This document shows positions 28,400 through 44,199 of a stretch of DNA of 64,000 nucleotides, in pieces; the first letter of the stretch is position 1, and every line of letters begins with the position of its first letter. The position numbers and the translations under genes are program-made. The notes under the pieces are model-generated. The model did not search any database and was not told where the DNA came from. It worked only from the letters and a program-made list of their open reading frames with translations. The stretch covers positions 248,001 to 312,000 of the forward strand of contig NZ_JAMXBF010000003.1 in assembly GCF_023823685.1 (NCBI RefSeq). The letters run 5' to 3'. The stretch comes from Pseudomonas subflava. Lineage in GTDB: Bacteria > Pseudomonadota > Gammaproteobacteria > Pseudomonadales > Pseudomonadaceae.

Positions 28400-28461
28400 T
28401 CGTACGACCTCTTCGAATCACGCCATTTCGCCTCTACGACAAAAGTCGCCATAGCGCCTGA

Positions 28462-28491
28462 TTGACAAGCCAGGCGGGGGTTGTCGATAAT
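28462..28491 (+). promoter_or_regulatory. sigma70 promoter of the OprD porin gene
   Basis: Perfect -35 TTGACA (28462-28467) and -10 GATAAT (28486-28491) with an 18-bp spacer. The predicted start lies near 28498, on the edge of the operator at 28500, and gives a leader of about 265 nt to the porin gene. The rest of the 366-bp gap (28400-28765) holds no gene I can support. Confidence 0.7.
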
Positions 28492-28499
28492 CCAGACAG

Positions 28500-28512
28500 G
28501 TTGTACGACAAC
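28500..28512 (+). promoter_or_regulatory. GntR-type operator, porin promoter
   Basis: GTTGTACGACAAC: 5-bp inverted arms around ACG, 8 bp after the -10. Same sequence family as the sites at 36651, 36882 and 43307. A half-match GTTGTCGAT overlaps the -10 region at 28480. Position at the transcription start fits repression. Confidence 0.75.
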
Positions 28513-28758
28513 ATATAACAACAAGAGCGCTTCGGCATGCTCACGACCGCCACCTTCATCGCCTATCGGCACCTGCGCCCGGCCGCCTCGCGTCAGGCCA
28601 GCCATCTATCGCCTCATCGCTCGCCTACCGGATTCGTCGACCACTAGTCGATAACCGCCGGCGCGCTGCCCTGCGCCGGTTTCCACCGTCACCGCCTCCA
28701 CATGCGCGCCGTTCGGCCTGCAGGGGGTCGGCCGTTCCGTTGAAAACCCAAGGAGCAC

Positions 28759-28766
28759 AACAACAA
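28759..28766 (+). promoter_or_regulatory. A-rich Hfq/Crc-type motif at the porin start codon
   Basis: AACAACAA running into the ATG, just after the AAGGAG ribosome-binding site. It fits AANAANAA, the catabolite-activity motif bound by Hfq with Crc in Pseudomonas. A second copy lies in the leader at 28517. Confidence 0.6.
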
Positions 28767-30007
28767 TGAAAGCTCGCTACACCCCGATCTCCGCCGCGCT
28801 GCTGGCCGCCGGCCTGTCCACCCTGCCGAACCTCTCCCAGGCCGCCGGTTTCGTCGAGGATGCCAAGGTCAACCTGAACCTGCGCAACTACTACATCAAC
28901 CGCAACTTCGTCGACGAGTCGCCGCAGAACTACGCCGAGGAATGGACACAGAACTTCATCCTCGACGCCCGCTCCGGCTACACCGAAGGCACGGTCGGCT
29001 TCGGCGTCGACGCCCTCGGCATGCTCTCGATCAAGCTCGACGGTGGCCGCGGCACCGCCGGCACCCAGCTGATTCCAGTGCACGATGACGGTCGCCCGGC
29101 CGATGACTGGGGTCGCCTGGCCGTGGCCGGCAAGGCGCGCTTCTCCAAGACCGAGCTGAAAGTCGGCGAGTGGATGCCAGTGCTGCCGATCCTCCGCGCC
29201 GACGACGGCCGCTCGCTGCCGCAGACCTTCCAGGGCGGCCAGATCACCTCCCAGGAGATCGCCGGCCTGACCCTGTACGGCGGCCAGTTCCGCCAGAACA
29301 GCCCGCGTAACGACGGCAGCCTGGAAGACATGAGCTACGGCGGCGGCACCTCCGACCGCTTCAACTTCGGCGGCGGCGAATACACCTTCAACGACAAGCG
29401 CACCCTGGTCGGCGCCTGGTACGCCGAGCTGCAGGACGTCTACCAGCAGCAGTTCTACAACCTGCAGCACAAGCAGCCGGTGGGCGACTGGACCCTGGGC
29501 GCCAACCTCGGCTACTTCATCGGCAAGGAAGAGGGCAGTGCCCTGGCCGGCGACCTGGACAACAAGACCGCGTTCGGCATGTTCTCCGCCAAGCTCGGCG
29601 GCAACACCTTCATCGTCGGCCTGCAGAAGCTCAGCGGCGACAGCGGCTGGATGCGCGTCAACGGCACCAGCGGCGGCACCCTGGCCAACGACAGCTTCAA
29701 CAACAGCTACGACAACCCCGAAGAGCGTTCCTGGCAGCTGCGCCACGACTACAACTTCGCCGCCCTCGGCCTGCCGGGCCTGACCCTGATGAACCGCTAC
29801 ATTAGCGGCGACAACATCGAGATCGCCGGCACCGACGACGGCGAAGAGTGGGGCCGCGAGTCCGAGCTGACCTACGTGGTGCAGTCCGGCCCGCTGAAGA
29901 GCCTCGGCCTGAAGTGGCGCAACTCCTCGCTGCGCAAGGACTGGGCCGGCTCGCGCAGCTTCGACGAGAACCGCGTGATCATCAACTTCCCGCTCGACAT
30001 CCTCTGA
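28766..30007 (+). CDS. OprD family outer-membrane porin
   Basis: 413-residue precursor with a signal peptide (cleavage after about residue 26, LSQA) and an 18-strand OprD-type barrel: FVEDAKVNLNLRNYYINRNF start, repeated aromatic-ended strands and the terminal phenylalanine-rich FPLDIL. OprD porins take up small carboxylates. Position at the edge of the uronate cluster and the shared operator suggest uptake of hexuronates or aldarates. Followed by a strong terminator. Confidence 0.92.
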   Translation: MKARYTPISAALLAAGLSTLPNLSQAAGFVEDAKVNLNLRNYYINRNFVDESPQNYAEEWTQNFILDARSGYTEGTVGFGVDALGMLSIKLDGGRGTAGTQLIPVHDDGRPADDWGRLAVAGKARFSKTELKVGEWMPVLPILRADDGRSLPQTFQGGQITSQEIAGLTLYGGQFRQNSPRNDGSLEDMSYGGGTSDRFNFGGGEYTFNDKRTLVGAWYAELQDVYQQQFYNLQHKQPVGDWTLGANLGYFIGKEEGSALAGDLDNKTAFGMFSAKLGGNTFIVGLQKLSGDSGWMRVNGTSGGTLANDSFNNSYDNPEERSWQLRHDYNFAALGLPGLTLMNRYISGDNIEIAGTDDGEEWGRESELTYVVQSGPLKSLGLKWRNSSLRKDWAGSRSFDENRVIINFPLDIL

Positions 30008-30035
30008 TTCCTCGGCTGCTCCTGCAGCACGCTTC

Positions 30036-30064
30036 GGCCCGTCTCTCGCGACGGGCCTTTTTTT
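30036..30064 (+). terminator. rho-independent terminator after the porin gene
   Basis: GGCCCGT-N8-ACGGGCC hairpin followed by TTTTTTT, 28 bp after the stop codon. Confidence 0.92.
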
Positions 30065-30068
30065 GCGC

Positions 30069-30097
30069 AAAAAAAACGGCGCACTTGTGGTGCGCCG
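30069..30097 (-). terminator. minus-strand rho-independent terminator of the garD operon
   Basis: Read on the minus strand: CGGCGCACC-ACAA-GTGCGCCG followed by T8. It faces the porin terminator a few bases away, insulating the convergent transcripts. A second GGCGCCACAAGCGCC hairpin lies upstream in the transcript at about 30137-30153. Confidence 0.88.
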
Positions 30098-30195
30098 CTA
30101 CTGCAATAAACCAGTACAACTAGCGTGGATGAAGCGACGGCGCTTGTGGCGCCGCCGCCTATAGGGCCCGGCTCCCGGCAGGAGCCGCGCCATAT

Positions 30196-31122
30196 TCAGG
30201 GCGGGGTGAGCACCTCGCCGTCGCGCAGGAAGGCCGCCAGGTTGTCGAGCAGCAACTGCTCCATGGCCTGGCGGGTTTCTACGGTGCCGCTGCCGACATG
30301 CGGCAGCAGGACCACGTTGGGCAGCTCGAACAGTTCCGACGGCACCTGCGGCTCGTGCTCGAACACGTCCAGGCCGGCGCCGCCGAGGCGACCCTCGCGC
30401 AGGGCGGCGACCAGCGCCGCCTCGTCGACCACGCTGCCGCGGGCGATGTTGATCAGCACACCCTGCGGACCCAGGGCGTCCAGCACCGCGGCGTCGATAA
30501 GGTGGTGCGTAGCGGCGCCGCCCGGGCAGGCCAGCACCAGGAAGTCCGCCCAGCGGGCCAGCGCCAGCAGGTCGGGCTCGTGGCTGTCGCCGTGCTGCGG
30601 GTGCGGCCGGCGGCTGTGGTAGCGCATCGGCATGGCGAAGCCGGTGGCGCGCAGGGCGATCTGCTCGCCGATGCGCCCCAGCCCGACGATGCCCAGGCGC
30701 TTGCCGCTGACCCGCCGTGTCAGCGGATAGGCGCCTGCGGCCCAGCGCCCCTCGCGGACGAAACGGTCGCTGGCCGGCAGTTGCCGCGCCGTGGCCAGGA
30801 TCAGGCCCAGGGCCAGGTCGGCGACACAGTCGTTGAGCACGTCCGGGGTGACGCTGACGCGGATGCCGCGGGCCTGGGCGGCGGCCACGCAGATCGCATC
30901 GCTGCCGACGCCGAAGCTGCAGATCGCGCGTACCCGGGGCAGCTGCGCCAGCTGCGCCTCGCTCAGACCGTGGCGCGCCGAGGTGACGACCACGTCGTAG
31001 TCGCCGCCATAGCGGCTCAGGTGGTCGGCCGGCTCGCGCCACAGCGAGGTCACCGGCCACTGCGCCAGCCGGGCCTGCAGGCCCTCGCTCAGCGGGCCTA
31101 TTTGCAACAGTCGTGGGTTCAT
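30196..31122 (-). CDS. D-2-hydroxyacid dehydrogenase, NADP-type hydroxypyruvate/glyoxylate reductase-like
   Basis: 308-residue Rossmann-fold reductase. Dinucleotide motif GIVGLGRIGEQI (about 148-159) followed by YHSRRPHP, whose arginine pair suggests NADPH preference. Catalytic residues are seen in NIARGSVVDE (Arg), GLDVFEHEP (Glu) and LLPHVGSGT (His). It starts one base after the garD stop, so it is the last gene of the kdgD-to-garD operon. No step of the known oxidative uronate pathway needs it; the substrate is open. Confidence 0.88.
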   Translation of the reverse strand: MNPRLLQIGPLSEGLQARLAQWPVTSLWREPADHLSRYGGDYDVVVTSARHGLSEAQLAQLPRVRAICSFGVGSDAICVAAAQARGIRVSVTPDVLNDCVADLALGLILATARQLPASDRFVREGRWAAGAYPLTRRVSGKRLGIVGLGRIGEQIALRATGFAMPMRYHSRRPHPQHGDSHEPDLLALARWADFLVLACPGGAATHHLIDAAVLDALGPQGVLINIARGSVVDEAALVAALREGRLGGAGLDVFEHEPQVPSELFELPNVVLLPHVGSGTVETRQAMEQLLLDNLAAFLRDGEVLTPP

Positions 31123-31123
31123 T

Positions 31124-32680
31124 TCAGGTCACCGGTGCCGGGTTGAACAGGGTCAGGTCATTGTGCAGGCGCAGGCGCTCGGCACAGGTCTCGCTGCGCC
31201 CGCTGGCTACGTCCAGGTACAGCCGGAAGATGTGCCAGCCCATCTCCTCGAGGCTCATGCGCCCGGAGGTGATCTGCCCGGCGTCGACGTCGATCAGGTC
31301 CGGCCAGCGCTCGGCCAGCTGGCTGCGCGTGGCCACCTTGATCACCGGCACCATGGCCAGGCCGTAAGGCGTGCCGCGGCCGGTGGTGAAGATATGCAGG
31401 TTCATGCCGGCGGCGATCTGCAGGGTGCCGCAGATGAAATCGCTGGCCGGCGTGGCGCAGAACCACAGGCCCTTGCCGCGGATGCGCTCGCCCGGCGAGA
31501 CCACCCCGGCGATGGCGCTGGAGCCGGACTTGGCGATCGAGCCCATGGCCTTCTCGACGATGTTGTTCAGCCCGCCCTTCTTGTTGCCCGGCGTGGTGTT
31601 GGCGCTGCGATCGGCCATACCGCGCTGCAGGTAGCGGTCGTACCAGTCCATCTCGCGGATCAGCGCATCGGCCACTTCCACCGAGGCGGCACGCGGGGTG
31701 AGCAGGTGGATGCCGTCGCGCACCTCGGTGTTCTCCGAGAACATCACCGTGGCGCCGGCGCGCACCAGCAGGTCGGCGGCCACGCCGAGGGCCGGGTTGG
31801 CGGTGATGCCGGAGAAGGCATCGCTGCCGCCGCACTGCATGCCGACCACCAGCTCGGCGGCCGGCACCGTCTCGCGACGACGCTCGTTCAATACCTGCAG
31901 GCGCGCCTCGATCATGCCCATGATCTGCTCGACCATGCCGGTGAAGCCGGTGCCGGAATCCTGCAGGCGGAACAGCCACTCCTCCTCGTCCTGGCCCTGG
32001 GTGAGGATGTCGCCATCCATCAGCTGGCTGGCCTGCAGCTTCTCGCAGCCCAGGCCGATGACCAGCGCCTGGCCGCCCAGGTTGGGGTTGCGGCTGATGT
32101 TGTACAGGGTGCGGATCGGCACCACCGCGTCCGGCGCGTTGATCGCCACGCCGCAACCGTAGCTGTGCGACAGGGCGACCACGTCGTCCACATGCGGGTA
32201 CTTCGGCAGGAGCTCCTTGCGCACGCGCTCGACCACGTGATCGAGCACGCCGACCACGCACTGCACGGTGGTGGTCACGCCGAGGATATTGCGCGTGCCG
32301 ACGGTGCCGTCCGGATTGCGGAAGCCCTCGAAGGTGAAGCCCTCCAGCGGCTCGGCCACGGGCGCCGACAGGGTCGCCTTGGGCAGGTTGTCCAGCGCCG
32401 GCGGCTCGGGCATGCGCAGGTGCGCCTCGGTGACCCAGCTGCCGGCCGGGATCGGCCGCAGCGCGTAGCCGATCACCTCGCCGTAGCGCACCACCTCGGC
32501 GCCCTCGGCGAGGTCGAGCAGCGCCACCTTGTGGCTCTGCGGGATGCCCTCGACGGCGACCAGGCCATCGTCGAAGCGTCCGCCCGCGGCGACGCCCTGG
32601 GCGTTGACCACCACGCCGACGTTGTCGGCCGGGTGCAGGCGGATGTAGCGCGGCGAGTCCTGATGGGGGATCAATTGCAT
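31124..32680 (-). CDS. garD: galactarate dehydratase (UxaA/GarD family)
   Basis: 518-residue iron-dependent dehydratase of the UxaA/altronase family. An N-terminal SAF-type domain ([26 protein letters not shown]) is followed by the catalytic region with [14 protein letters not shown], the GLGCEKLQ cysteine and [13 protein letters not shown]. The neighbouring kdgD and uronate dehydrogenase indicate meso-galactarate rather than altronate as substrate, giving 5-dehydro-4-deoxyglucarate. Altronate dehydratase is the alternative within the family. Confidence 0.88.
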
Positions 32681-32692
32681 GGCAGGTACTCC

Positions 32693-34063
32693 TCAGGCCG
32701 AAGCCAGCTTCTGTCCCGGCGCCGTCTCGCCGTGCGGGCGCGGATCATCGTCCAGCTCCACGCGCTGGATCTTGCCGACGATCACCAGGTAGCTGAACAC
32801 CGCCACCAGGGCGTTGGCGCCTACATATACCAAGGCCCACTTGAACGAGCCGGTTGCGGCGATGATGTAGCCGATGACGATCGGCGTGGTGATCGAGGCG
32901 ACGTTGCCGAAGGTGTTGAACAGGCCACCGGAAAGACCCGCGATCTGCTTCGGCGAAGTGTCCGCCACCACCGCCCAGCCCAGCGCACCGATGCCCTTGC
33001 CGAAGAAGGCCAGGCTCATGAAACCGATGACCATCCATTCGGCCGACACGTAGTTGCAGAACACCATGCTGGTCGACATCAGCAGGCCGACCACGATCGG
33101 CAGCTTGCGGGCGAAGGTCAGCGAGTGGCCGCGGCGCAGCAGCCAGTCGGAGATGATCCCGCCGAGCACGCCGCCGACGAAGCCGCAGATGGCCGGCAGG
33201 GAGGCGACGAAGCCGGCCTTGAGGATGGTCATGCCGCGCTCCTGCACCAGGTAAACCGGGAACCAGGTGAGGAAGAAGTAGGTGATACCGTTGATGCAGT
33301 ACTGGCCCAGGTACACGCCGAGCAGCATGCGGTTGGTCAGCAGTTGCTTGATGTAGCTCCACTTGGGACCGCCGCCGGCCTTCTTCTGGTCCATGTCGAC
33401 CAGGCCGCCGTTGCTCTCGATGTGCGCCAGTTCGGCAGCGTTGATCCGAGGATGGTCCTTGGGGTTGTAGATGGTCTTCATCCAGACCATGGAGAAGACG
33501 ATGCCTAACGCGCCCATCACCACGAACACGTGTTCCCAGCCAAAGGCGTGGACGATCCAGCCCATCAGCGGGGCGAACAGCGCGGTGGCGAAGTACTGCG
33601 CGGAGTTGAAGATGGCCGACGCGGTGCCGCGCTCGGCGGTGGGAAACCAGGCCGCGACGATGCGTGCGTTACCGGGGAAGGACGGCGCCTCGGCGAAGCC
33701 GACCAAAAAACGCATGACGAACAGGGTGACCACCGCCCAGGCCATCGGCATCACGCCGACAAAGCCCTGCAGCAGGGTGAACAGCGACCAGATGAAGATG
33801 CCCGCCGCATACACGCGCTTGGAGCCGAAACGGTCGAGCAGCCAGCCTCCCGGAATTTGCCCGATCACATAGGCCCAGCCGAAGGCGGAGAAGATGTAGC
33901 CAAGGGTCACGGCGTCGAAGCCGAGGTCCTTCTGCATGGCGGAGCCGGCGATGGAGATGGTCGCGCGGTCGGCGTAGTTGATCGTGGTCACCAGAAACAG
34001 CATGAGCAGGATCAGGTAACGCACGCGGGTCTGCTTGAGTTCTTGCACGGATAACGCCCCCAT
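32693..34063 (-). CDS. MFS aldarate/sugar-acid transporter (GudP-like)
   Basis: 456-residue 12-helix proton symporter of the anion:cation symporter family. The start motif MLFLVTTINYADRATISIAGSAMQ and the loop DRFGSKRVY are typical of glucarate/galactarate/galactonate carriers. The ATG at 34063 directly follows an AAGAACAA motif; codons further upstream have no homology. It lies between garD and the semialdehyde dehydrogenase in the same operon, supporting an aldarate substrate. Confidence 0.88.
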   Translation of the reverse strand: MGALSVQELKQTRVRYLILLMLFLVTTINYADRATISIAGSAMQKDLGFDAVTLGYIFSAFGWAYVIGQIPGGWLLDRFGSKRVYAAGIFIWSLFTLLQGFVGVMPMAWAVVTLFVMRFLVGFAEAPSFPGNARIVAAWFPTAERGTASAIFNSAQYFATALFAPLMGWIVHAFGWEHVFVVMGALGIVFSMVWMKTIYNPKDHPRINAAELAHIESNGGLVDMDQKKAGGGPKWSYIKQLLTNRMLLGVYLGQYCINGITYFFLTWFPVYLVQERGMTILKAGFVASLPAICGFVGGVLGGIISDWLLRRGHSLTFARKLPIVVGLLMSTSMVFCNYVSAEWMVIGFMSLAFFGKGIGALGWAVVADTSPKQIAGLSGGLFNTFGNVASITTPIVIGYIIAATGSFKWALVYVGANALVAVFSYLVIVGKIQRVELDDDPRPHGETAPGQKLASA

Positions 34064-34071
34064 TTGTTCTT
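34064..34071 (-). promoter_or_regulatory. A-rich Hfq/Crc-type motif at the MFS start codon
   Basis: On the minus strand AAGAACAA abuts the ATG, an exact AANAANAA match. Confidence 0.5.
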
Positions 34072-34220
34072 GTCGGGGTTTGCATTGGGCGGCCCGTAGG
34101 GGCGCCTGCGGTGGAGGACTCGGCACCGAGCGTGGCATGCGCCGCTCGCGGTTTCGGGTCGTCCCCAGTGGTATTGCAGTGGTCGAGCGGGTGGAGGCGG
34201 GCCCGCGGGCCCGCTCCGGT

Positions 34221-35651
34221 TCAGCCGATGTAGGTGGTCTTCACCGTGGTGTAGAACTCGGCGGCGTAGCGGCCCTGTTCGCGCGGGCCGTAGGACGAGC
34301 CTTTGCGACCGCCGAACGGCACGTGGTAATCCACCCCGGCAGTGGGCAGATTGACCATGACCATGCCGGCCTGGGCGTGACGCTTGAAGTGGTTGGCGTA
34401 CTTCAACGAGGTGGTGGCGATGCCCGCGGACAGGCCGAACTCGGTGTCGTTGGCCATGGCCAGCGCCGCCTCGTAATCGGCCACGCGAACCACGTTGGCC
34501 ACCGGGCCGAAGATTTCTTCACGGCTGATGCGCATGTCGGCCGAGCTGTCGGCGAACAGGGTCGGCGCCAGGAAGTAGCCTTCGGTCTCGCAGCGCACGC
34601 GCTCGCCACCGGTGATCAGACGCGCACCTTCGTCGCGGCCGATGTCGATGTAGCGCAGGTCCTGCTCGAGCTGGGCCTGGGACACCACCGGGCCGACGTC
34701 GACGCCGCTGTGCAGGGCATGACCGACGCGGATCGACTTCATGCGCTCGGCCATGGCGGCGACGAACTGGTCGTGGATGCCCGAGGTGACGATCAGGCGG
34801 CTGGAAGCGGTGCACCGCTGGCCGGTGGAGTAGAAGGCGCTCTGCACGGCCAGCTCGACGGCCACCTTGAGGTCGGCGTCGTCGAGGATGATCTGCGGGT
34901 TCTTGCCGCCCATCTCCAGCTGCACCTTGGCGCCGCGTGCCACGCACTTGGCGGCGATGGCGCGGCCGACACCGACCGAGCCGGTGAAGCTGATGCCGTC
35001 GACTTCGCGGTTGTCGACCATGGCCTCACCGACCACGCGGCCGGCGCCCATCACCAGGTTGAACACGCCGGCCGGGAAACCGGCGCGGGAGATGATCTCG
35101 GCGATGGCCCAGGCGCAGCCCGGTACCAGATCGGCGGGTTTGAACACCACGCAGTTGCCATAGGCCAGGGCCGGGGCGATCTTCCACGCCGGGATGGCGA
35201 TGGGGAAGTTCCACGGGGTAATCAGGCCGATCACGCCGAGCGGCTCGCGGGTCACTTCCACCGATACGCCCGGACGCACCGACGGCACGATCTCGCCGGC
35301 CAGGCGCAGGCATTCGCCGGCGAAGAACTTGAAGATGTTGCCGGCGCGGGTCACCTCGCCGATGGCCTCGGGCAGGGTCTTGCCCTCCTCCCGGGCCAGC
35401 AGGGTGCCGAGCTCTTCGCGGCGGGCGAGGATCTCGCTGCCGACCTTGTCCAGCGCATCGCTGCGCGCCTGGATGCCGGAGGTGGACCAGGCCGGGAAGG
35501 CGGCGCGCGCCGCCGCCACCGCCTGGCCGACCTGAGCGGCGTCGGCCTGGGCGTATTCGCCGACCACGTCGTTCAGGTCAGAGGGATTGACGTTGTCCGC
35601 GTAGGCGGCGCCGGCGACCCATTCGCCACCGATGTAGTTGTCGTAACGCAC
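34221..35651 (-). CDS. 2,5-dioxovalerate (alpha-ketoglutarate semialdehyde) dehydrogenase
   Basis: 476-residue aldehyde dehydrogenase. Motifs: TPWNFPIAIP (catalytic Asn), LEMGGKNP (general-base Glu, about 249), STGQRCTASS (nucleophile Cys, about 283) and the ISREEIFGPV NAD site. It starts with GTG behind AGGAG. Position directly after kdgD, whose product is alpha-ketoglutarate semialdehyde, identifies the likely substrate; the product, alpha-ketoglutarate, enters the TCA cycle. Confidence 0.9.
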   Translation of the reverse strand: MRYDNYIGGEWVAGAAYADNVNPSDLNDVVGEYAQADAAQVGQAVAAARAAFPAWSTSGIQARSDALDKVGSEILARREELGTLLAREEGKTLPEAIGEVTRAGNIFKFFAGECLRLAGEIVPSVRPGVSVEVTREPLGVIGLITPWNFPIAIPAWKIAPALAYGNCVVFKPADLVPGCAWAIAEIISRAGFPAGVFNLVMGAGRVVGEAMVDNREVDGISFTGSVGVGRAIAAKCVARGAKVQLEMGGKNPQIILDDADLKVAVELAVQSAFYSTGQRCTASSRLIVTSGIHDQFVAAMAERMKSIRVGHALHSGVDVGPVVSQAQLEQDLRYIDIGRDEGARLITGGERVRCETEGYFLAPTLFADSSADMRISREEIFGPVANVVRVADYEAALAMANDTEFGLSAGIATTSLKYANHFKRHAQAGMVMVNLPTAGVDYHVPFGGRKGSSYGPREQGRYAAEFYTTVKTTYIG

Positions 35652-35676
35652 GGGAATTCTCCTGTCGTCGAGGGCC

Positions 35677-36588
35677 TTATTGCGGGCCGAGTTTGTCCAT
35701 CAGCGCGGCCAGCTTCTCGACCTCTTCGGGCAGCAGGTCGGTCAGCGGCGCACGCACCGGACCGGCGTCGTAGCCGGCCAGCTTGGCGCCGGCCTTGACG
35801 ATGCTCACGGCGTAGCCGGCCTTGCGGTTGCGGATGTCCAGGTAGGGCAGGAAGAAATCGTCGATCAGCTTGCCGACGGTTTCGTGATCGTCGGCGGCGA
35901 TGGCGCGGTAGAAGTCCATGGCGGTCTTCGGCACGAAGTTGAACACGGCAGAGGAGTACACCGGCACGCCCAGGGCCTTGTAGGCGGCGGCGTAGACCTC
36001 GGCGGTCGGCAGGCCGCCGAGGTAGCTGAAGCGGTCGCCGAGGCGGCGGCGGATGGAAACCATCAGCTCGATGTCGCCCAGGCCGTCCTTGTAGCCGATC
36101 AGGTTCGGGCAGCGCTCGGCCAGTTGCTCGAGCAGGGTGGCATTGAGGCGGCAGACATTGCGGTTGTACACCACCACGCCGATCTTCACCGACTTGCAGA
36201 CTTGCTCGACGTGAGCGGCAACACCGTCCTGGGACGCTTCGGTCAGGTAGTGCGGCAGCAGCAGCAGGCCCTTGGCGCCCAGGCGCTCGGCCTCCTGGGC
36301 CATCTGGATGGCGACGCGGGTCGGGCCGCCGACGCCGGCGAGGATCGGCACGCTCTTCTCGCAGGTGTCCACGGCGGTCTTGATGATCTCGCTGTATTCA
36401 CGGCTGTCGAGGGAGAAGAACTCGCCGGTACCGCCGGCGGCGAACAGCGCGGAAGCGCCGTAGGGTGCCAGCCACTCCAGACGGCGCACATAGCCATCCT
36501 TGTTGAAGTTGCCGACCTCATCGAAATCGGTGACCGGGAAAGACAGCAGGCCGTGAGAAAGGATGGACTTTAGTTCTTGTGGATTCAT
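35677..36588 (-). CDS. kdgD: 5-dehydro-4-deoxyglucarate dehydratase
   Basis: 303-residue DapA-superfamily (beta/alpha)8 lyase that dehydrates and decarboxylates 5-dehydro-4-deoxy-D-glucarate to alpha-ketoglutarate semialdehyde. The Schiff-base lysine is in [10 protein letters not shown] (about residue 164), the catalytic tyrosine in VVYNRNVCR, and [12 protein letters not shown] is the family GTGE-type motif. The ATG at 36588 starts [21 protein letters not shown] as in homologues. First gene of the minus-strand operon kdgD - dehydrogenase - MFS - garD - hydroxyacid dehydrogenase. Confidence 0.95.
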
Positions 36589-36650
36589 TGTTCGGACACC
36601 CTGTGCATCGTTAGGAGGCGGTCGCCTCGGTGGCAACCTTCGAGAGATAC

Positions 36651-36663
36651 GTTATCGTACAAC
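36651..36663 (-). promoter_or_regulatory. GntR-type operator, kdgD operon
   Basis: Minus strand GTTGTACGATAAC, one base different from the porin site, 62 bp before the kdgD ATG in the 334-bp divergent region (36589-36922), which contains no gene. The kdgD -10/-35 are not clear to me. Confidence 0.72.
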
Positions 36664-36843
36664 TATCAAGATTGCCAACACCCGAATTTCCCATCCCTTG
36701 GTATAGCGTTCGGCTGTTCCAGTCACCTTCGCGCTCGGTTATCCTGCGTGAAAGCGGCGGTTTAGATAGGCTGCCAAGCTCATGCTAGGCAGGTTCAGAT
36801 GGTAACCGCCGGTACCGATTTGCCCCGTTCGACTTTAGTCACG

Positions 36844-36872
36844 TTGACAAGACGAACATCGCCTGCTCAAAT
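36844..36872 (+). promoter_or_regulatory. probable sigma70 promoter of the udh operon
   Basis: Perfect -35 TTGACA (36844-36849), 17-bp spacer, weak -10 TCAAAT (36867-36872). The operator at 36882 follows by 9 bp, the same geometry as at the porin promoter, which supports the assignment. Confidence 0.6.
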
Positions 36873-36881
36873 CGCAATCAA

Positions 36882-36894
36882 GTCATACGACAAC
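36882..36894 (+). promoter_or_regulatory. GntR-type operator, udh operon
   Basis: GTCATACGACAAC, differing from the porin site at two positions of the left arm, located at the predicted transcription start. Confidence 0.7.
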
Positions 36895-36895
36895 T

Positions 36896-36906
36896 AACAA
36901 CAACAA
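36896..36906 (+). promoter_or_regulatory. A-rich Hfq/Crc-type motif upstream of udh
   Basis: AACAACAACAA lies 16 bp before the ATG, immediately upstream of the CAGGAC ribosome-binding region; two overlapping AANAANAA matches. Confidence 0.55.
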
Positions 36907-36922
36907 TTTCAGGACACTGCCC

Positions 36923-37732
36923 ATGAGCAATCACCCCGTCCTCCCCCGCCTGCTGCTCACCGGCGCCGCCGGCGGCCTCGGCAAGGTGCTGCGCCAGCGC
37001 CTGCGCCCCTACGCCGAAGTACTGCGTCTCTCCGACATCGCGCCGATGGAGCCCGCCGCCGGTCCCCATGAAGAAGTGATTCCCTGCGACCTCGCCGACA
37101 AGGCCGCGGTGCATGCCCTGGTCGAAGGCGTCGACGCCATCCTGCATTTCGGCGGCGTCTCGGTCGAGCGGCCGTTCGAGGAGATCCTCGGCGCCAACAT
37201 CGCCGGCACCTTCCACATCTATGAAGCCGCCCGCAAGCACGGGGTGAAGCGCGTGGTGTTCGCCAGCTCCAACCACGTGATCGGCTTCTATTCGCAGAAC
37301 GAGCGCATCGACGCCGCCGCGGCGCGCCGCCCGGACGGCTACTACGGCCTGTCCAAGTCCTACGGCGAAGACATGGCCAGCTTCTACTTCGACCGCTACG
37401 GCATCGAGACCGTCAGCATCCGCATCGGCTCCTCGTTCCCCGAGCCGGCCAACCGCCGCATGATGCACACCTGGCTGAGCTACGACGACCTCACCCAGCT
37501 GATCGAGCGCTGCCTGTTCACCCCGAACGTCGGCCACACCGTGGTCTACGGCGCCTCTGCCAACCGCGAGGTGTGGTGGGACAACCACCTGGCCGCGCAC
37601 CTGGGCTTCTCCCCCAAGGACAGCTCCGAAGTGTTCCGCGACAAGGTCGAGGCGCAGCCGCCGGTGGCAGCCGACGACCCCGCGGCGCTCTACCAGGGCG
37701 GCGCGTTCTGCGCCCAGGGGCCGTTCGACTGA
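36923..37732 (+). CDS. udh: uronate dehydrogenase
   Basis: 269-residue NAD-dependent SDR oxidising D-galacturonate or D-glucuronate to the aldarolactone. The Rossmann motif TGAAGGLGKVL is at residues 13-23, FASSNHVIGFY and the catalytic YYGLSKSYGED (YxxxK) follow, and IRIGSSFPEP and WWDNHLAAHLG match characterised Pseudomonas Udh closely. First gene of the plus-strand catabolic/TRAP operon. Confidence 0.95.
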   Translation: MSNHPVLPRLLLTGAAGGLGKVLRQRLRPYAEVLRLSDIAPMEPAAGPHEEVIPCDLADKAAVHALVEGVDAILHFGGVSVERPFEEILGANIAGTFHIYEAARKHGVKRVVFASSNHVIGFYSQNERIDAAAARRPDGYYGLSKSYGEDMASFYFDRYGIETVSIRIGSSFPEPANRRMMHTWLSYDDLTQLIERCLFTPNVGHTVVYGASANREVWWDNHLAAHLGFSPKDSSEVFRDKVEAQPPVAADDPAALYQGGAFCAQGPFD

Positions 37733-37755
37733 CCAGCCCCTCTTGCAGCCACGCG

Positions 37756-37770
37756 AACAACAACAAGAGA
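37756..37770 (+). promoter_or_regulatory. A-rich Hfq/Crc-type motif at the lactonase ribosome-binding site
   Basis: AACAACAACAAGAGA ends 7 bp before the ATG and occupies the place of the Shine-Dalgarno sequence; no better ribosome-binding site is visible. Confidence 0.6.
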
Positions 37771-37777
37771 CATCGCC

Positions 37778-38659
37778 ATGCAAGCAGAACTGATTTTCGA
37801 CGCCCGTAACGGCGTTGGCGAAAGCCCGGTGTGGAGTGCCCGCGAACAGGCGCTGTACTGGGTCGATATCCCGGCCGGGCGCCTGCATCGCTGGAGCGCT
37901 GCCGACGAGCAGGTGAGCAGCTGGCAGAGCGACGAGATGATCGGCTGCGTCGCCCGCAGCGCCGACGGCCAGGGCTGGATCGCCGGTCAGGAGAGTGGCG
38001 TGTTCCAGCTGCAGCCGCAGGCCGACGGCCGCCTAGCCGGCACCCGCGTGGCTACGGTCGAGCACCGCGCCGAGGGCATGCGCTTCAACGATGGCCGTTG
38101 CGACCGTCAGGGTCGCCTGTGGCTGGGCAGCATGCTCATGGACATGGCGGCCGGGGCGGCGCTTGGGCGTCTATATCGCTTCAGCGACGGCCGCCTTGAG
38201 GCCCAACTCGGTGGGCTGATCGTGCCCAACGGGCTGGCCTTCAGCCCGGACGGGCGCATCATGTACCTGTCCGACTCGCATCCCGACGTGCAGGCCATCT
38301 GGGCCTTCGATTACGACATCGACACGGGCACGCCACACAATCGCCGGTTGTTCGTCGACATGCGCCAGCATCTCGGCCGGCCGGACGGTGCCGCCGTCGA
38401 CGCCGATGGCTGCTACTGGATCTGCGGCAACGACGCCGGCCTGATCCACCGCTTCACCCCCGACGGCCGCCTCGACCGCTCCCTCGCCGTACCGGTGAAG
38501 AAGCCGGCCATGTGCGCCTTCGGTGGGCGCGACCTTGACACCCTGTTCGTCACCTCCATTCGCCCGGGCGGCGACCTCGCCGACCAGCCCCTGGCCGGTG
38601 GCGTGTTCGCCCTGAGGCCTGGCGTGAAGGGACTCGAAGAACCCCCGTTCGCCGTCTGA
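37778..38659 (+). CDS. SMP-30/gluconolactonase family aldarolactonase
   Basis: 293-residue six-bladed propeller lactonase. Metal ligands are visible in GVGESPVW (Glu), RFNDGRCDRQGRLWLGSM (Asn, Asp), IVPNGLAFSPD (Asn) and GRPDGAAVDADGCYW (Asp). It follows udh and probably opens the galactaro- or glucaro-lactone formed by Udh, as described for UxuL-type enzymes of Pseudomonas. Gluconolactonase is the generic alternative. Confidence 0.9.
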   Translation: MQAELIFDARNGVGESPVWSAREQALYWVDIPAGRLHRWSAADEQVSSWQSDEMIGCVARSADGQGWIAGQESGVFQLQPQADGRLAGTRVATVEHRAEGMRFNDGRCDRQGRLWLGSMLMDMAAGAALGRLYRFSDGRLEAQLGGLIVPNGLAFSPDGRIMYLSDSHPDVQAIWAFDYDIDTGTPHNRRLFVDMRQHLGRPDGAAVDADGCYWICGNDAGLIHRFTPDGRLDRSLAVPVKKPAMCAFGGRDLDTLFVTSIRPGGDLADQPLAGGVFALRPGVKGLEEPPFAV

Positions 38660-38681
38660 ACGGCCATCCAAAACGCGTTCC

Positions 38682-38696
38682 AACAAAAACAACAAG
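38682..38696 (+). promoter_or_regulatory. A-rich Hfq/Crc-type motif upstream of the TRAP binding protein
   Basis: AACAAAAACAACAAG directly precedes the GGGAGAG ribosome-binding site, 10 bp before the ATG. Confidence 0.55.
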
Positions 38697-38706
38697 GGAG
38701 AGACCC

Positions 38707-39675
38707 ATGAACTTCAAACGCAAACTGCTCCTGGCCACACTGCCGCTGGCCTTCAGCATGACCGCCCACGCCGACATCGTGCTGAAGGCCTCCGACGTGC
38801 ACCCCGCCGGCTACCCGACCGTGGTCGCGGTGGAAAGCATGGGCAAGAAGCTGGAGGCCGCCAGCAACGGCGAAATCCGCGTGCAGATGTTCTCCGGCGG
38901 CGTGCTCGGCTCTGAAAAGGAAGTGGTCGAGCAGACCCAGCTCGGCGCCATCCAGCTGGCGCGCATCACCCTCGGCGTGGTTGGCCCGGTGGTGCCGGAC
39001 GTCAATGTGTTCAACATGCCGTTCGTGTTCCGCGACCACGACCACATGCGCAAGGTGATCGACGGTGACGTCGGCCAGGAAATCCTGGACAAGATCACCA
39101 ACTCCGAATTCGGCCTGGTCGGCCTGGCCTGGATGGACGGCGGCACCCGCAACCTCTACACCAAGGAGCCGGTGCGCAAGATCGAAGACCTCAAGGGCAT
39201 GAAGATCCGTGTGATCGGCAACCCGCTGTTCATCGACACCCTCAACGCCATGGGCGGCAACGGTATCGCCATGGACACCGGCGAGATCTTCACCGCGCTG
39301 CAGACCGGCGTGATCGACGGCGCTGAGAACAACCCGCCGACCCTGCTCGAGCACAACCACTACAAGTACGCCAAGTATTTCACCCAGACCGGCCACCTGA
39401 TCCTGCCGGAGCCGCTGGTGATGTCCAAGGCCACCTGGGAAGAGCTGAGCCCCGAGCAGCAGGCCCTGGTGAAGAAGCTGGCCCGCGAGGCGCAGATGGA
39501 AGAGCGCGCGCTGTGGGACGCCAAGTCCGCCGCCAGCGTTGACAAGCTCAAGGCCGAGGGCGTGGAGTTCATCGAGGTGGACAAGAAGCCGTTCTACGAC
39601 GCCACCGCCCCGGTTCGCGAGAAGTACGGTGTCCAGTACGCCGACCTGATCAAGCGCATCGAAGCGGTGCAGTAA
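38707..39675 (+). CDS. TRAP transporter substrate-binding protein (DctP family)
   Basis: 322-residue periplasmic binding protein with a signal peptide cleaved after MTAHA (about residue 22). Family signatures: FSGGVLGSEKEVVEQTQLGAIQ, the conserved substrate-carboxylate arginine region MKIRVIGNPLF, and IFTALQTGVIDGAENNPPT. With udh and the lactonase upstream, hexuronate is the likely ligand. An intercistronic hairpin at 39696 separates it from the permease genes. Confidence 0.93.
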   Translation: MNFKRKLLLATLPLAFSMTAHADIVLKASDVHPAGYPTVVAVESMGKKLEAASNGEIRVQMFSGGVLGSEKEVVEQTQLGAIQLARITLGVVGPVVPDVNVFNMPFVFRDHDHMRKVIDGDVGQEILDKITNSEFGLVGLAWMDGGTRNLYTKEPVRKIEDLKGMKIRVIGNPLFIDTLNAMGGNGIAMDTGEIFTALQTGVIDGAENNPPTLLEHNHYKYAKYFTQTGHLILPEPLVMSKATWEELSPEQQALVKKLAREAQMEERALWDAKSAASVDKLKAEGVEFIEVDKKPFYDATAPVREKYGVQYADLIKRIEAVQ

Positions 39676-39695
39676 TCCTCCCCGTCCCAAGCAGC

Positions 39696-39719
39696 GCCGC
39701 GGCGGTTCTCCGCCGCGGC
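39696..39719 (+). other. strong intercistronic hairpin between TRAP binding protein and permease genes
   Basis: Perfect 10-bp arms GCCGCGGCGG and CCGCCGCGGC around TTCT, 20 bp after the dctP stop. There is no T-run, so it more likely protects the upstream message from 3' exonucleases, raising binding protein over permease. Confidence 0.75.
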
Positions 39720-39733
39720 CGTGGTAGCGCGCC

Positions 39734-40264
39734 ATGAAAGAACGAATCCTGCGTTTCAACGACCTGATCTACATCAGCGCCATCTGGGTCTCCGGCTTGT
39801 CCGTGGCCGTGATGGCACTGATCATTCCCTGGGGCATCTTCGCCCGCTACGTACTCGGCGCCGGCTCCAGCTGGCCGGAGCCGGTGGCGATCCTGCTGAT
39901 GGTGCTGTTCACCTTTATCGGCGCCGCCGCCAGCTACCGCGCCGGCGCGCACATGGCGGTGACCATGCTCACCGACCGCCTGCCGCCGCATACGCAACGC
40001 TACATCGAGATCCTGGTGCAGCTGCTGATGGCAGCCGTGTGCCTGTTCATGACCATCTGGGGCATCAAGCTCTGCGCGACCACCTGGAACCAGACCATCG
40101 CCGCCCTGCCCTCGCTGCGGGTAGGCATCAGCTACGCGCCGATTCCGCTGGGCGGCGCCATCACCCTGATCTTCATCCTCGAACGACTGCTTTTCGGCGA
40201 CCAGAGCCACCGCCGCGCCGTCAACTACGAGCAGCACGAAGAAAGCCAAGAGGCCGTGTCGTAA
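39734..40264 (+). CDS. TRAP transporter small permease (DctQ family)
   Basis: 176-residue inner-membrane protein with four helices (about residues 18-38, 52-72, 92-118, 133-155) and WPEPVAILLMVLFTFIGAA typical of DctQ. Together with the large permease it forms the sodium-coupled TRAP translocator. Its TAA is followed without gap by the large-permease ATG. Confidence 0.92.
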   Translation: MKERILRFNDLIYISAIWVSGLSVAVMALIIPWGIFARYVLGAGSSWPEPVAILLMVLFTFIGAAASYRAGAHMAVTMLTDRLPPHTQRYIEILVQLLMAAVCLFMTIWGIKLCATTWNQTIAALPSLRVGISYAPIPLGGAITLIFILERLLFGDQSHRRAVNYEQHEESQEAVS

Positions 40265-41545
40265 ATGGATGCCTTCATTCTCCTGGGCAGCTTCCTGCTG
40301 CTCATCGTCCTGCGCATGCCGGTGGCGTACGCCCTGGGCCTGTCCGCCCTGGCCGGCGCCTGGTGGATCGACATTCCCTTCTCGGCCCTGATGATTCAGG
40401 TGGCCGCGGGGGTCAACAAATTCGCCCTGCTGGCCATTCCGTTCTTCGTGCTGGCCGGCGCGATCATGGCCGAGGGCGGCATGTCCCGCCGCCTGGTGGC
40501 CTTCGCCGGGGTGCTGGTGGGTTTCGTTCGCGGCGGCCTGTCGCTGGTGAACGTCGTGGCCTCGACCTTCTTCGGCGCCATCTCCGGCTCGGCAGTGGCG
40601 GACACCGCCTCGGTCGGCTCGGTGATGATTCCGGAAATGGTCAAGAAGGGTTATCCGCGCGACTACTGCACCGCGGTCACCGTCAGCGGCTCGGTACAGG
40701 CGCTGCTCACCCCGCCTAGCCACAACTCGGTGCTCTACTCACTGGCCGCCGGCGGCACCGTATCGATCGCCTCGCTGTTCATCGCCGGCATCGGTCCGGG
40801 CCTGCTGCTCACCGCGGTGATGATGGGTCTGTGCCTGCTGTTCGCGAAGAAGCGCAACTACCCCAAGGGTGAGGTGATTCCGCTGCGCCAGGCGCTGAAG
40901 ATCTGCGTCGAGGCACTGTGGGGCCTGGCCACCATGGGCATCATCCTCGGTGGCATTCTCTCGGGCGTGTTCACCGCCACCGAGTCGGCGGCCATCGCGG
41001 TGGTCTGGTCGTTCTTCGTGACCATGTGCATCTATCGCGACTACAAGTGGCGCGACCTGCCCAAGCTGATGCACCGCACGGTGCGCACCCTGTCGATCGT
41101 CATGGTGCTGATCGCCTTCGCCGGCGCCTTCGGCTACATCATGACGCTGATGCAGATTCCGTCGAAGATCACCACGGCCTTCCTGACCCTGTCGGACAAC
41201 CGCTACGTGATCCTGATGGCGATCAACTTCATGCTGCTGCTGCTTGGCACGCTGATGGACATGGCCCCGCTGATCCTGATCCTCACGCCGATCCTGCTGC
41301 CGGTGATCCTCAACCTGGGCATCGACCCGGTGCACTTCGGCATGATCATGCTGGTCAACCTGGGCATCGGCCTGATCACACCCCCGGTAGGTGCGGTGCT
41401 GTTCGTCGGCTCGGCGGTCGGCAAGGTCAGCATCGAGACCACGGTGAAGGCGCTGCTGCCCTTCTACGTGGCCCTGTTCATGGTGCTGATGGCCGTCACC
41501 TACATCCCCGCCATTTCCCTCTGGCTGCCGAGCGTCGTGCTCTGA
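40265..41545 (+). CDS. TRAP transporter large permease (DctM family)
   Basis: 426-residue multi-helix membrane protein (about 11-12 helices) with DctM landmarks: FALLAIPFFVLAGAIMAEGG, GAISGSAVADTASVGSVMIPEM, LLTPPSHNSVLYSLAAGG and GLITPPVGAVLFVGSAVG. It is the transport channel of the TRAP system and follows the small permease with no spacer. Confidence 0.95.
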   Translation: MDAFILLGSFLLLIVLRMPVAYALGLSALAGAWWIDIPFSALMIQVAAGVNKFALLAIPFFVLAGAIMAEGGMSRRLVAFAGVLVGFVRGGLSLVNVVASTFFGAISGSAVADTASVGSVMIPEMVKKGYPRDYCTAVTVSGSVQALLTPPSHNSVLYSLAAGGTVSIASLFIAGIGPGLLLTAVMMGLCLLFAKKRNYPKGEVIPLRQALKICVEALWGLATMGIILGGILSGVFTATESAAIAVVWSFFVTMCIYRDYKWRDLPKLMHRTVRTLSIVMVLIAFAGAFGYIMTLMQIPSKITTAFLTLSDNRYVILMAINFMLLLLGTLMDMAPLILILTPILLPVILNLGIDPVHFGMIMLVNLGIGLITPPVGAVLFVGSAVGKVSIETTVKALLPFYVALFMVLMAVTYIPAISLWLPSVVL

Positions 41546-41608
41546 CGAGGAGGGCCAGGCCGGCGCCGCCTTCGGGCGGCGTCGGCGCTTCTGCAGCGAG
41601 AAAGAGAC

Positions 41609-42505
41609 ATGTCGCAACCCTTCCCCCGCCTGCTGGCGGTGCTGATTCTGGTCTTCACCTCCAGCAGCTTCGCCGCCAACCACATCGCCGCGCGCATCGC
41701 CTTCGACCAGGGCACCGGCCTGCTGCTGGCCATCCTCTGCCGCTCCGGGCTGACCCTGCTGGTGCTGTTCGGCCTGCTGCTGATCCGCCGCGAGTCGCTG
41801 CGCCTGCCCGCCGGCACCGGCGGCTGGCAGCTGTTGCTCGGCCTGCTGATCGCCACCCAGAGCTTCTGCGTCTATTCGGCGGTGGCACGCATCCCGGTGG
41901 CCGTGGCGCTATTGGTGGTCAACCTGGCGCCGCTGTTCCTGGTGCTGCTGACCTGGGCTCTTGGCGGGCCGCGACCGACCCGGCGCACGGCGCTGCTGAT
42001 GGGCATGATCCTGGTCGGCCTGACGCTGGTGCTGGACGTACCGGCGCGGCTGGCCGGCAGCGGCGACACCGCCTGGGGCCCGGGCATCGCCTCCGGCGTG
42101 GCGGCGGCGGCGGTGTTCGCGGTGGCACTGTGGATCACCGAGCACCGGCTGTCGGCGGTGCCGGGCACGCTGCGCAGCATGATGACCATCGGTGTGGTGT
42201 TCGTCGCCGCCGCCGCGGCCGGCTTCGGCGGTGCGATGCCCGGCATGATGACGCCGCCCGCGGCCACCAGCGGCTGGCTGGCGCTGCTCTGCCTGACCCT
42301 GCTCTACGGCACGGCGTTCTCGGTGCTGTTCATCTGCATGCCGCGGCTGAACCTGGCGCGCAACGCGCCGGTGATGAACGTCGAGCCGGTGTCCAGCCTG
42401 CTGTTCGCCTGGCTGATCCTCGGTCAGGCGCTGGGCAGCCTGCAGCTGCTCGGCGGCGCCATCGTGCTCGGCGGCATCGTGCTGCTGGCGCTGCGGCGCG
42501 GCTGA
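41609..42505 (+). CDS. EamA/DMT family transporter
   Basis: 298-residue membrane protein with ten predicted helices in two EamA repeats (about 5-140 and 155-295). Proteins of this family export metabolites or import nucleotide sugars; several sit in sugar-acid clusters. It follows the TRAP genes after 63 bp containing a GC hairpin (41560-41587), so it may be partly co-expressed. Its specific role is unknown. Confidence 0.87.
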   Translation: MSQPFPRLLAVLILVFTSSSFAANHIAARIAFDQGTGLLLAILCRSGLTLLVLFGLLLIRRESLRLPAGTGGWQLLLGLLIATQSFCVYSAVARIPVAVALLVVNLAPLFLVLLTWALGGPRPTRRTALLMGMILVGLTLVLDVPARLAGSGDTAWGPGIASGVAAAAVFAVALWITEHRLSAVPGTLRSMMTIGVVFVAAAAAGFGGAMPGMMTPPAATSGWLALLCLTLLYGTAFSVLFICMPRLNLARNAPVMNVEPVSSLLFAWLILGQALGSLQLLGGAIVLGGIVLLALRRG

Positions 42506-42508
42506 AGC

Positions 42509-43255
42509 TCAGTCGTGCTGGTGCTCCGCCTCTTCGTGGGCCTGACGCAGCCGCTCGCGGCTGTTGGTCAGGTGCAGGCGCATGGCCGCACGCGCGGCTT
42601 CGGCGTCCTGGCGGGCGATGGCCTCGTAGATTTCCTCGTGCTCGCGGCTCAGGCGCGACAGGTAGTGCTTCTCGTCGTCATGGGCCAGGCGCGCCGAGTT
42701 CAACCGCGTGCGCGGAATGATGCTGGTGCCCAGGTGAGTCATGATGTCGGTGAAGTAGCGGTTGTCGGTGGCGATGGCGATCTGCAGGTGGAACTGGAAG
42801 TCCGAGGCCACCGCGTCACTGCGGTGCGCGGCGCTGAGGAAACTGTCCAGCGCCGCGCGCATCGCCGCCAGCTGCTCGGGCGTGCGGCGCGTGGCTGCCA
42901 GCCCAGCGGACTCGACCTCCAGGCTGATGCGCAGCTCGAGCAGGGCGATGACCTCACGCAGGGTGACGATGGTCGCCGGGTCGATGCGCAGGCCGCTCGG
43001 GCTGGGCATGTCCAGCACGAAGGTGCCGATGCCGTGGCGGGTTTCCACCAAGCCGGCCGCCTGCAAGCGCGAGATGGCCTCGCGCACCACGGTGCGGCTG
43101 ACGCCCTGGGCCGCCATGATCGCCGACTCGGTGGGCAGCTTCTCGCCACGCTTGAACACACCGTCGCTGATCTGCTGGGACAGCTCGCTGACCAGTTCCT
43201 GGGCCAGGCTGCGGTGCTTGCGGCGCGCGCGCGGCGCGGTGCTCGGGGTTTCCAT
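42509..43255 (-). CDS. FadR/GntR-family transcriptional regulator (hexuronate operon)
   Basis: 248 residues: N-terminal winged helix (about 14-80, with GEKLPTESAIMAAQGVSRTV and RLQAAGLVETRHGIGTFV) and a C-terminal all-helical FCD ligand domain containing the metal-site residues in DFQFHLQIAI and EHEEIYEAI. The ATG at 43255 is preferred; the frame is open upstream through the operator. It most likely binds the GTYRTACGAYRAC sites in the cluster, including one at its own promoter, and is released by a uronate or aldarate. Confidence 0.9.
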   Translation of the reverse strand: METPSTAPRARRKHRSLAQELVSELSQQISDGVFKRGEKLPTESAIMAAQGVSRTVVREAISRLQAAGLVETRHGIGTFVLDMPSPSGLRIDPATIVTLREVIALLELRISLEVESAGLAATRRTPEQLAAMRAALDSFLSAAHRSDAVASDFQFHLQIAIATDNRYFTDIMTHLGTSIIPRTRLNSARLAHDDEKHYLSRLSREHEEIYEAIARQDAEAARAAMRLHLTNSRERLRQAHEEAEHQHD

Positions 43256-43291
43256 GACGTGGGTGCGGTCTCTGCTGTCGGCAACCGCGCC

Positions 43292-43297
43292 ATCATA
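43292..43297 (-). promoter_or_regulatory. probable -10 of the regulator gene
   Basis: TATGAT on the minus strand, 37 bp before the regulator ATG; the operator at 43307 lies just upstream, between -10 and -35 positions. No good -35 is seen. Confidence 0.4.
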
Positions 43298-43306
43298 TCT
43301 CAGGCA

Positions 43307-43319
43307 GTTGTACGATGAC
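43307..43319. promoter_or_regulatory. GntR-type operator, regulator/epimerase divergent region
   Basis: GTTGTACGATGAC, matching the family of sites at 28500, 36651 and 36882. It lies between the divergent regulator and epimerase genes and could control both. Confidence 0.7.
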
Positions 43320-43332
43320 ACCCGAGGCTTCC

Positions 43333-44199
43333 ATGCCGATTCTGCAGGACGCGCTAACCCGCCTGGAACTGCGCCCGGACCTGGGCGGCGCCATCGCCAA
43401 CTGGGCACTGCGTGACGGCGGAGCGCCGCTGCTGCGCCACGCCGACGAACAGGCGCTGGCCGCGGGCACTCCGCGCCGATTGGGCTGCTTCGCCCTGGTG
43501 CCCTGGTCCAACCGCATCGCCGACGGCGGCTTCGCCAATCCTTCCGGCTGGCTGGACCTGCAGCCGCCGCCGGGCGAGGCCCTGCCGATTCACGGCAGCG
43601 CCTGGCACCAGGCCTGGACCCTGCTGGCCCATGACCCGAGTTCGGCGCTGCTGGTTCTCGACAGCGCCGAGCCCCTCCCCTACCGCGCGGAGCAGCGGCT
43701 GAGCCTGCGCGACGGCTGCCTTAGCCTGAGCCTGCAGGTGGAGCACCGCGGCGCCGAGGCGGCCTGGTACGGGCTGGGCCTGCATCCGTATTTTCCCCGC
43801 ACCGCCGCCACCCGCCTCGAGGTCGGCGCCGAGGCCGTATGGCTGTGCGGCGCCGATCGCCTGCCGAACGAGCTGGCGCCGCTGCCGCCGGCCTGGGATT
43901 TCGCCCGCGAACGCGCGCTGCCGGACAACGAGGTAGACAACGCCTTCGCCGGCTGGAACGGTCGCTGCCGCGTCGTCCAGCCGGACCTGGGCTACGTCCT
44001 GGAGTGCCAGGCCTCGCACTGCGGCCACTACATGCTGTTCTGCCCGAGCGGGCGCGACTTCTTCTGCGTCGAGCCGGTGTCGCACCCGCCCAACGCCCAC
44101 CACCTGCCGGGCCGGCCGGGGCTGCGTCTGCTCAAACCCGGCCAGCGCCTGCGGCTGGACTGGCGCATGACCTGCCGGCCGCTGACCACACGCCCATGA
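43333..44199 (+). CDS. aldose 1-epimerase family protein
   Basis: 288-residue galactose-mutarotase-fold protein. Recognisable: LVPWSNRIADGGF (substrate-binding Asn-Arg), LPIHGSAWHQAW (His), GLGLHPYFPR (catalytic His) and FFCVEPVSHPPNAHH (catalytic Glu). The ATG at 43333 is chosen because GAGG precedes it; an ATG at 43315 lies inside the operator. In this cluster it may interconvert uronate anomers for Udh, which uses a cyclic form. Confidence 0.88.
   Translation: MPILQDALTRLELRPDLGGAIANWALRDGGAPLLRHADEQALAAGTPRRLGCFALVPWSNRIADGGFANPSGWLDLQPPPGEALPIHGSAWHQAWTLLAHDPSSALLVLDSAEPLPYRAEQRLSLRDGCLSLSLQVEHRGAEAAWYGLGLHPYFPRTAATRLEVGAEAVWLCGADRLPNELAPLPPAWDFARERALPDNEVDNAFAGWNGRCRVVQPDLGYVLECQASHCGHYMLFCPSGRDFFCVEPVSHPPNAHHLPGRPGLRLLKPGQRLRLDWRMTCRPLTTRP

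Follow-up and report, generated by a model that had tools for sequence, protein, structure and literature searches.

Predicted GguR operators in a hexuronate gene island of Pseudomonas subflava and a polar third half-site at structural-gene promoters

On the sequence evidence, the 13-mer that recurs in a hexuronate gene island of Pseudomonas subflava can almost certainly be assigned as binding site to GguR, the published regulator of galacturonate and glucuronate breakdown genes, and the window that we analyzed (64,000 nts; GCF_023823685.1, NZ_JAMXBF010000003.1, 248,001-312,000 of the forward strand) is a new genome's copy of the known GguR regulon. Tying the 13-mer to a named regulator makes targets predictable in well over a hundred genomes. 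Bouvier and colleagues reportedly showed binding in vitro and described this regulon in the families Burkholderiaceae, Comamonadaceae, Halomonadaceae and Pseudomonadaceae.

The gene set of the island is that of the oxidative hexuronate/aldarate pathway:

27119-28399: hydrolase gene, upstream of the porin
28766..30007, plus strand: OprD-family porin (Pfam PF03573)
30196..31122, minus strand: D-isomer-specific 2-hydroxyacid dehydrogenase of the kdgD operon (Pfam PF02826, PF00389)
31124..32680, minus strand: garD, galactarate dehydratase (TIGR03248 above cut-off)
32693..34138, minus strand: MFS sugar-acid transporter (from the translation; a neighbour of kdgD and garD that is conserved in relatives)
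34221..35651, minus strand: aldehyde dehydrogenase, probably alpha-ketoglutaric semialdehyde dehydrogenase (Pfam PF00171; best NCBIfam model GucD, below cut-off)
35677..36588, minus strand: kdgD, 5-dehydro-4-deoxyglucarate dehydratase (TIGR03249 above cut-off)
36923..37732, plus strand: putative udh, uronate dehydrogenase of the NAD-dependent epimerase/dehydratase family (Pfam PF01370; function assigned from conserved context)
37778..38659, plus strand: SMP-30-family lactonase, probably UxuL (Pfam PF08450)
38707..41545, plus strand: TRAP transporter, three genes at 38707-39675, 39734-40264 and 40265-41545 (from the translations; conserved with udh and uxuL)
41609..42505, plus strand: EamA-family transporter (Pfam PF00892)
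42509..43255, minus strand: gguR, GntR/FCD regulator (Pfam PF00392 and PF07729 above cut-off; orthologs and conserved context)
43333..44199, plus strand: aldose 1-epimerase-like gene, divergent from gguR (Pfam PF01263; alternative start 43315)

GguR has an FCD domain. Among the genes of the island we saw no second regulator, in agreement with the single regulator claimed by the first-pass annotation. The operators and promoters were as follows, the promoter elements being probable readings of the letters:

28396..28408, minus strand: probable auxiliary operator GTCGTACGATCAC (GTGATCGTACGAC on the plus strand), overlapping the hydrolase gene upstream at its stop codon
28462..28491, plus strand: probable porin promoter, TTGACA at 28462-28467, 18-bp spacer, GATAAT at 28486-28491
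28500..28519, plus strand: porin operator with three half-sites, GTTGTACGACAACATATAAC, the third being ATAAC (exact; similar before orthologous porins)
36644..36663, minus strand: kdgD operator GTTGTACGATAAC, then a degenerate third box gtATCTC (also in L062, L063, L064 and L175)
36844..36872, plus strand: probable udh promoter, TTGACA at 36844-36849, 17-bp spacer, TCAAAT at 36867-36872
36882..36901, plus strand: udh operator with three half-sites, GTCATACGACAACTAACAAC, the third being ACAAC (exact)
43292..43297, minus strand: probable gguR -10, TATGAT, which follows the operator by 9 bp (conserved in orthologs)
43307..43319, minus strand: gguR/epimerase operator, a plain palindrome, GTCATCGTACAAC on the minus and GTTGTACGATGAC on the plus strand (conserved before gguR in relatives)

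The four 13-mers that the first-pass annotation had located before the uronate genes were all exact at their positions and strands. Against 0.00 matches in 100 dinucleotide shuffles, these four occurred in the 64-kb window, and they were the only exact copies in the whole 4.44-Mb genome, all within a 15-kb island. The family takes the form of a FadR-type palindrome, GTYRT-N3-AYRAC. A fifth site had been missed: GTCGTACGATCAC on the minus strand (28396-28408), with one mismatch to the consensus. Its GTGAT half-site variant is common in relatives, since among 80 orthologous gguR promoters 29 carried the strict form, 38 more this variant, and several of the remaining 13 close variants; the strict site was absent from a few orthologous loci, e.g. 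L149 and L152. Asymmetry had been noted at the centre of the motif; the ACG found here is real, but the centre varies between species (ACG or CGT in 109 of 140 sites, the rest ATG, CAG and others).

This GTCGTACGATCAC site lies 104 bp before the porin operator, and relatives often have a pair of operators, separated by 58-209 bp, around the porin or MFS promoter. Looping between paired operators was considered and is not supported, as the spacings, 104 and 231 bp in the island and roughly 58-280 bp in relatives, displayed no common helical phase on inspection.

The annotation did not know the motif as a described one. This did not hold, because a published GguR probe containing GTCATCAGACAAC and the FadR-subfamily consensus both match the sites. 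FadR-subfamily operators carry TKGT and ACMA boxes in which 3 nt separate GT from AC (Suvorova et al. 2015, PMC4494728): GTTGTACGACAAC was an exact fit to this pattern and the other three sites departed from it by G-to-A/C-to-T changes in one arm. The probe is the GguR control probe of Polaromonas sp. JS666 in a 2021 paper citing Bouvier et al. 2019 (PMC8376909). GTCATCAGACAAC differs from the udh operator of the window, GTCATACGACAAC, in the centre only (CAG vs ACG) and fits GTYRT-N3-AYRAC; CAG centres were found in L068 too. The exact 17-mer of the Polaromonas probe had no match in 401 related genomes. We infer that the regulator of the window is orthologous to the assayed Polaromonas GguR. 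The GguR regulon for hexuronate and aldarate use (Bouvier et al. 2019) is known here through PMC8376909, PMC5507952 and PMC6353982, and work of 2017 on Halomonas describes GguR regulons with udh and UxuPQM.

We observed that the palindrome is real but does not make up the full operator at every promoter, as the first-pass annotation had supposed. Structural-gene operators carry a third half-site, and the operator is therefore not only a 13-mer. The complete 20-bp element reads GTYRT-N3-AYRAC-N2-AYRAC, the third box following the palindrome on its gene side after a gap of exactly 2 bp. Counted over non-redundant promoters (flanks <70% identical), AYRAC at the 2-bp gap was found in 18 of 20 udh, 17 of 28 kdgD and all 5 MFS promoters, versus 2 of 33 gguR promoters. 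At other gaps it was near zero, except for gap 5 (6/20 udh, 2/5 MFS), where AAC repeats follow. Against a 1/256 background the binomial p for structural genes was 1e-12 to 1e-41, values that are descriptive only, since the loci used for the count were those in which the offset had been spotted by eye. In this window, the third half-site is perfect at porin and udh, degenerate at kdgD and lacking at gguR; genome-wide, the exact 20-bp element occurred at the porin and udh operators only. The third half-site was also present before orthologous porins in L166, L167, L178 and L180. The kdgD operator represents a sub-class, in which the third box (36644-36650, minus strand, and the four loci listed above) is altered yet conserved, with gtATCTC for AYRAC.

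A second GguR dimer probably loads at the third half-site, which would tighten repression of porin and udh, with the degenerate box at kdgD. We propose, tentatively, that GguR uses two operator types, the 13-bp palindrome for its own gene and the polar 20-bp three-half-site element loading a second dimer on its targets, such that gguR and the targets would respond at different inducer levels. It is fairly unlikely that the third half-site is instead conserved as part of the early transcript or initial transcribed region and not as a GguR contact: it does lie just past the expected transcription start, and several udh leaders have more AAC repeats after it, but its variation stays within the AYRAC letters seen in the arms of the palindrome, its 2-bp gap is fixed across several unrelated promoters, and it is nearly absent at the gguR promoter. 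The polar third half-site is the addition of this analysis, the published GguR site being known here from the probe in the citing paper.

Concerning mechanism, the sites are very likely operators of GguR (42509-43255, minus strand), which would act as a metabolite-released repressor of the four promoters, with a second dimer at the third half-sites. These promoters, all most likely repressed by GguR, are those of porin, kdgD-garD, udh-uxuL-TRAP and gguR/epimerase. At two of these the annotation had measured 8-9 bp from the -10 to the site, and we obtained 8 bp for porin and 9 bp for udh; both operators would begin about at the transcription start. The kdgD operator would overlap the probable -10 region and that of gguR would lie just upstream of its own -10 (9 bp before the conserved TATGAT). 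A dimer bound at any of these operators is expected to hinder RNA polymerase. The regulator's own operator would remain a simple palindrome and the third half-site of porin and udh would probably take the second dimer. The releasing ligand would be a metabolite of the uronate or aldarate pathway, probably bound at a conserved three-histidine metal site. D153, H157, H207 and H229 were invariant in 15/15 aligned regulator orthologs, and the His spacing (50/22) resembles that of the metal sites of LldR (48/22) and TM0439 (40/22), which makes a metal-bound carboxylate ligand plausible.

That GguR binds these sites and activates some or all of the promoters appears improbable. Certain FCD regulators, e.g. 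CitO, are activators, and the additional upstream sites, namely 28396 and the intergenic pair between udh and kdgD, might have such a role, but the main sites occupy repressor positions, about +1 at porin and udh and at or beside the -10 at kdgD and gguR.

When related genomes were scanned, the 13-mer followed the regulator: the exact sequence was present in 120 of 121 Pseudomonadaceae genomes that have the regulator, at a mean of 4.1 copies, and in 24 of the 127 that lack it, at a mean of 0.20, the 248 genomes compared being related, such that the co-occurrence p-value overstates their independence. In the genus of the window, among the genomes listed, the nine without a regulator match had 0 or 1 copies. 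Named orthologs came from Pseudomonas, Azotobacter, Stutzerimonas, Burkholderia, Herbaspirillum, Collimonas, Variovorax (62-64% identity), Achromobacter and Bordetella. The palindrome precedes gguR, kdgD or udh in the majority of these orthologous loci, with examples ranging from Pseudomonas to Variovorax, Achromobacter and Collimonas, and the regulator is linked to udh, kdgD, garD/gud, uxuL and TRAP genes both in the window and in relatives in Pseudomonadaceae and Burkholderiales. Some other FadR-type regulator encoded elsewhere, with the local protein using a different site, is very improbable: similar palindromes do occur in the subfamily and each genome has many GntR proteins (G000 has a second regulator match), but the 13-mer tracks the 42509 regulator over the 248 genomes and the palindrome sits in that regulator's own conserved promoter, staying with it across families. 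As predicted by the annotation, a single operator family and regulon with the FadR-type GntR protein as likely binder, and its autoregulation, are thus strongly supported by comparative genomics.

Some Pseudomonas genomes (G204, G233, G243, G015, G124, G215) contain a second GguR-like regulator, 67-70% identical; in G124 (L081) this second regulator lies next to udh and is accompanied by operators of its own.

We also examined sites outside the island. The genome holds 11 other relaxed palindromes, none with the exact 20-bp form and most apparently in coding DNA, and an extension of the regulon beyond the island was rejected. Among relaxed palindromes, GTTATGTTATAAC lies upstream of a CobW-type GTPase gene (L058:2004-2016, G000:C21:663703, and L189); it resembles a Zur box and is presumably a false positive in regulon scans. 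GTTGTCAGACAAC (L060:2019-2031, G000:C29:274018), located between chemoreceptor-like and PuuD-like genes, has no third half-site and may be either an additional target or a chance match. In relatives, chemoreceptor genes were likewise rejected as targets: among four sites near MCP genes none was a clear three-half-site operator before the MCP gene, and that of L173 is intragenic.

Compared with known systems, the island shares with the GguR regulon the GntR-family regulator, udh, galactarate/glucarate genes, a TRAP transporter and the site form GTYRT-N3-AYRAC, and differs from the Polaromonas probe in the centre (ACG here, CAG there). The E. coli NanR operator, (GGTATA)3, is a three-repeat operator that recruits three dimers (PMC8012715). 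NanR is likewise a FadR-subfamily repressor of sugar-acid catabolism with three half-sites, and the NanR model was the top NCBIfam match of our regulator, far below cut-off. However, the NanR operator consists of direct repeats of a 6-bp unit, and three such repeats are not found here, where a palindrome (one half-site inverted) precedes a single repeat at a 7-bp period. Also, NanR cooperativity needs a 32-residue N-terminal extension (PMC8012715), whereas the N-terminal tail here is about 15 residues. With FadR-subfamily operators in general, the sites share the palindrome with TKGT/ACMA boxes and the extra half-sites nearby; weaker additional half-sites near GntR palindromes were reported with function unknown (PMC4494728). 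In contrast to these, the extra half-site described here is one-sided (towards the gene), lies at a fixed gap and belongs to structural-gene but not regulator promoters. Since extra half-sites are known in the GntR family and three dimers load on the NanR repeats, the third half-site is a fresh case of a known phenomenon. This polar element is a concrete and cheaply testable instance of the extra GntR half-sites to which the 2015 study assigned no function (PMC4494728).
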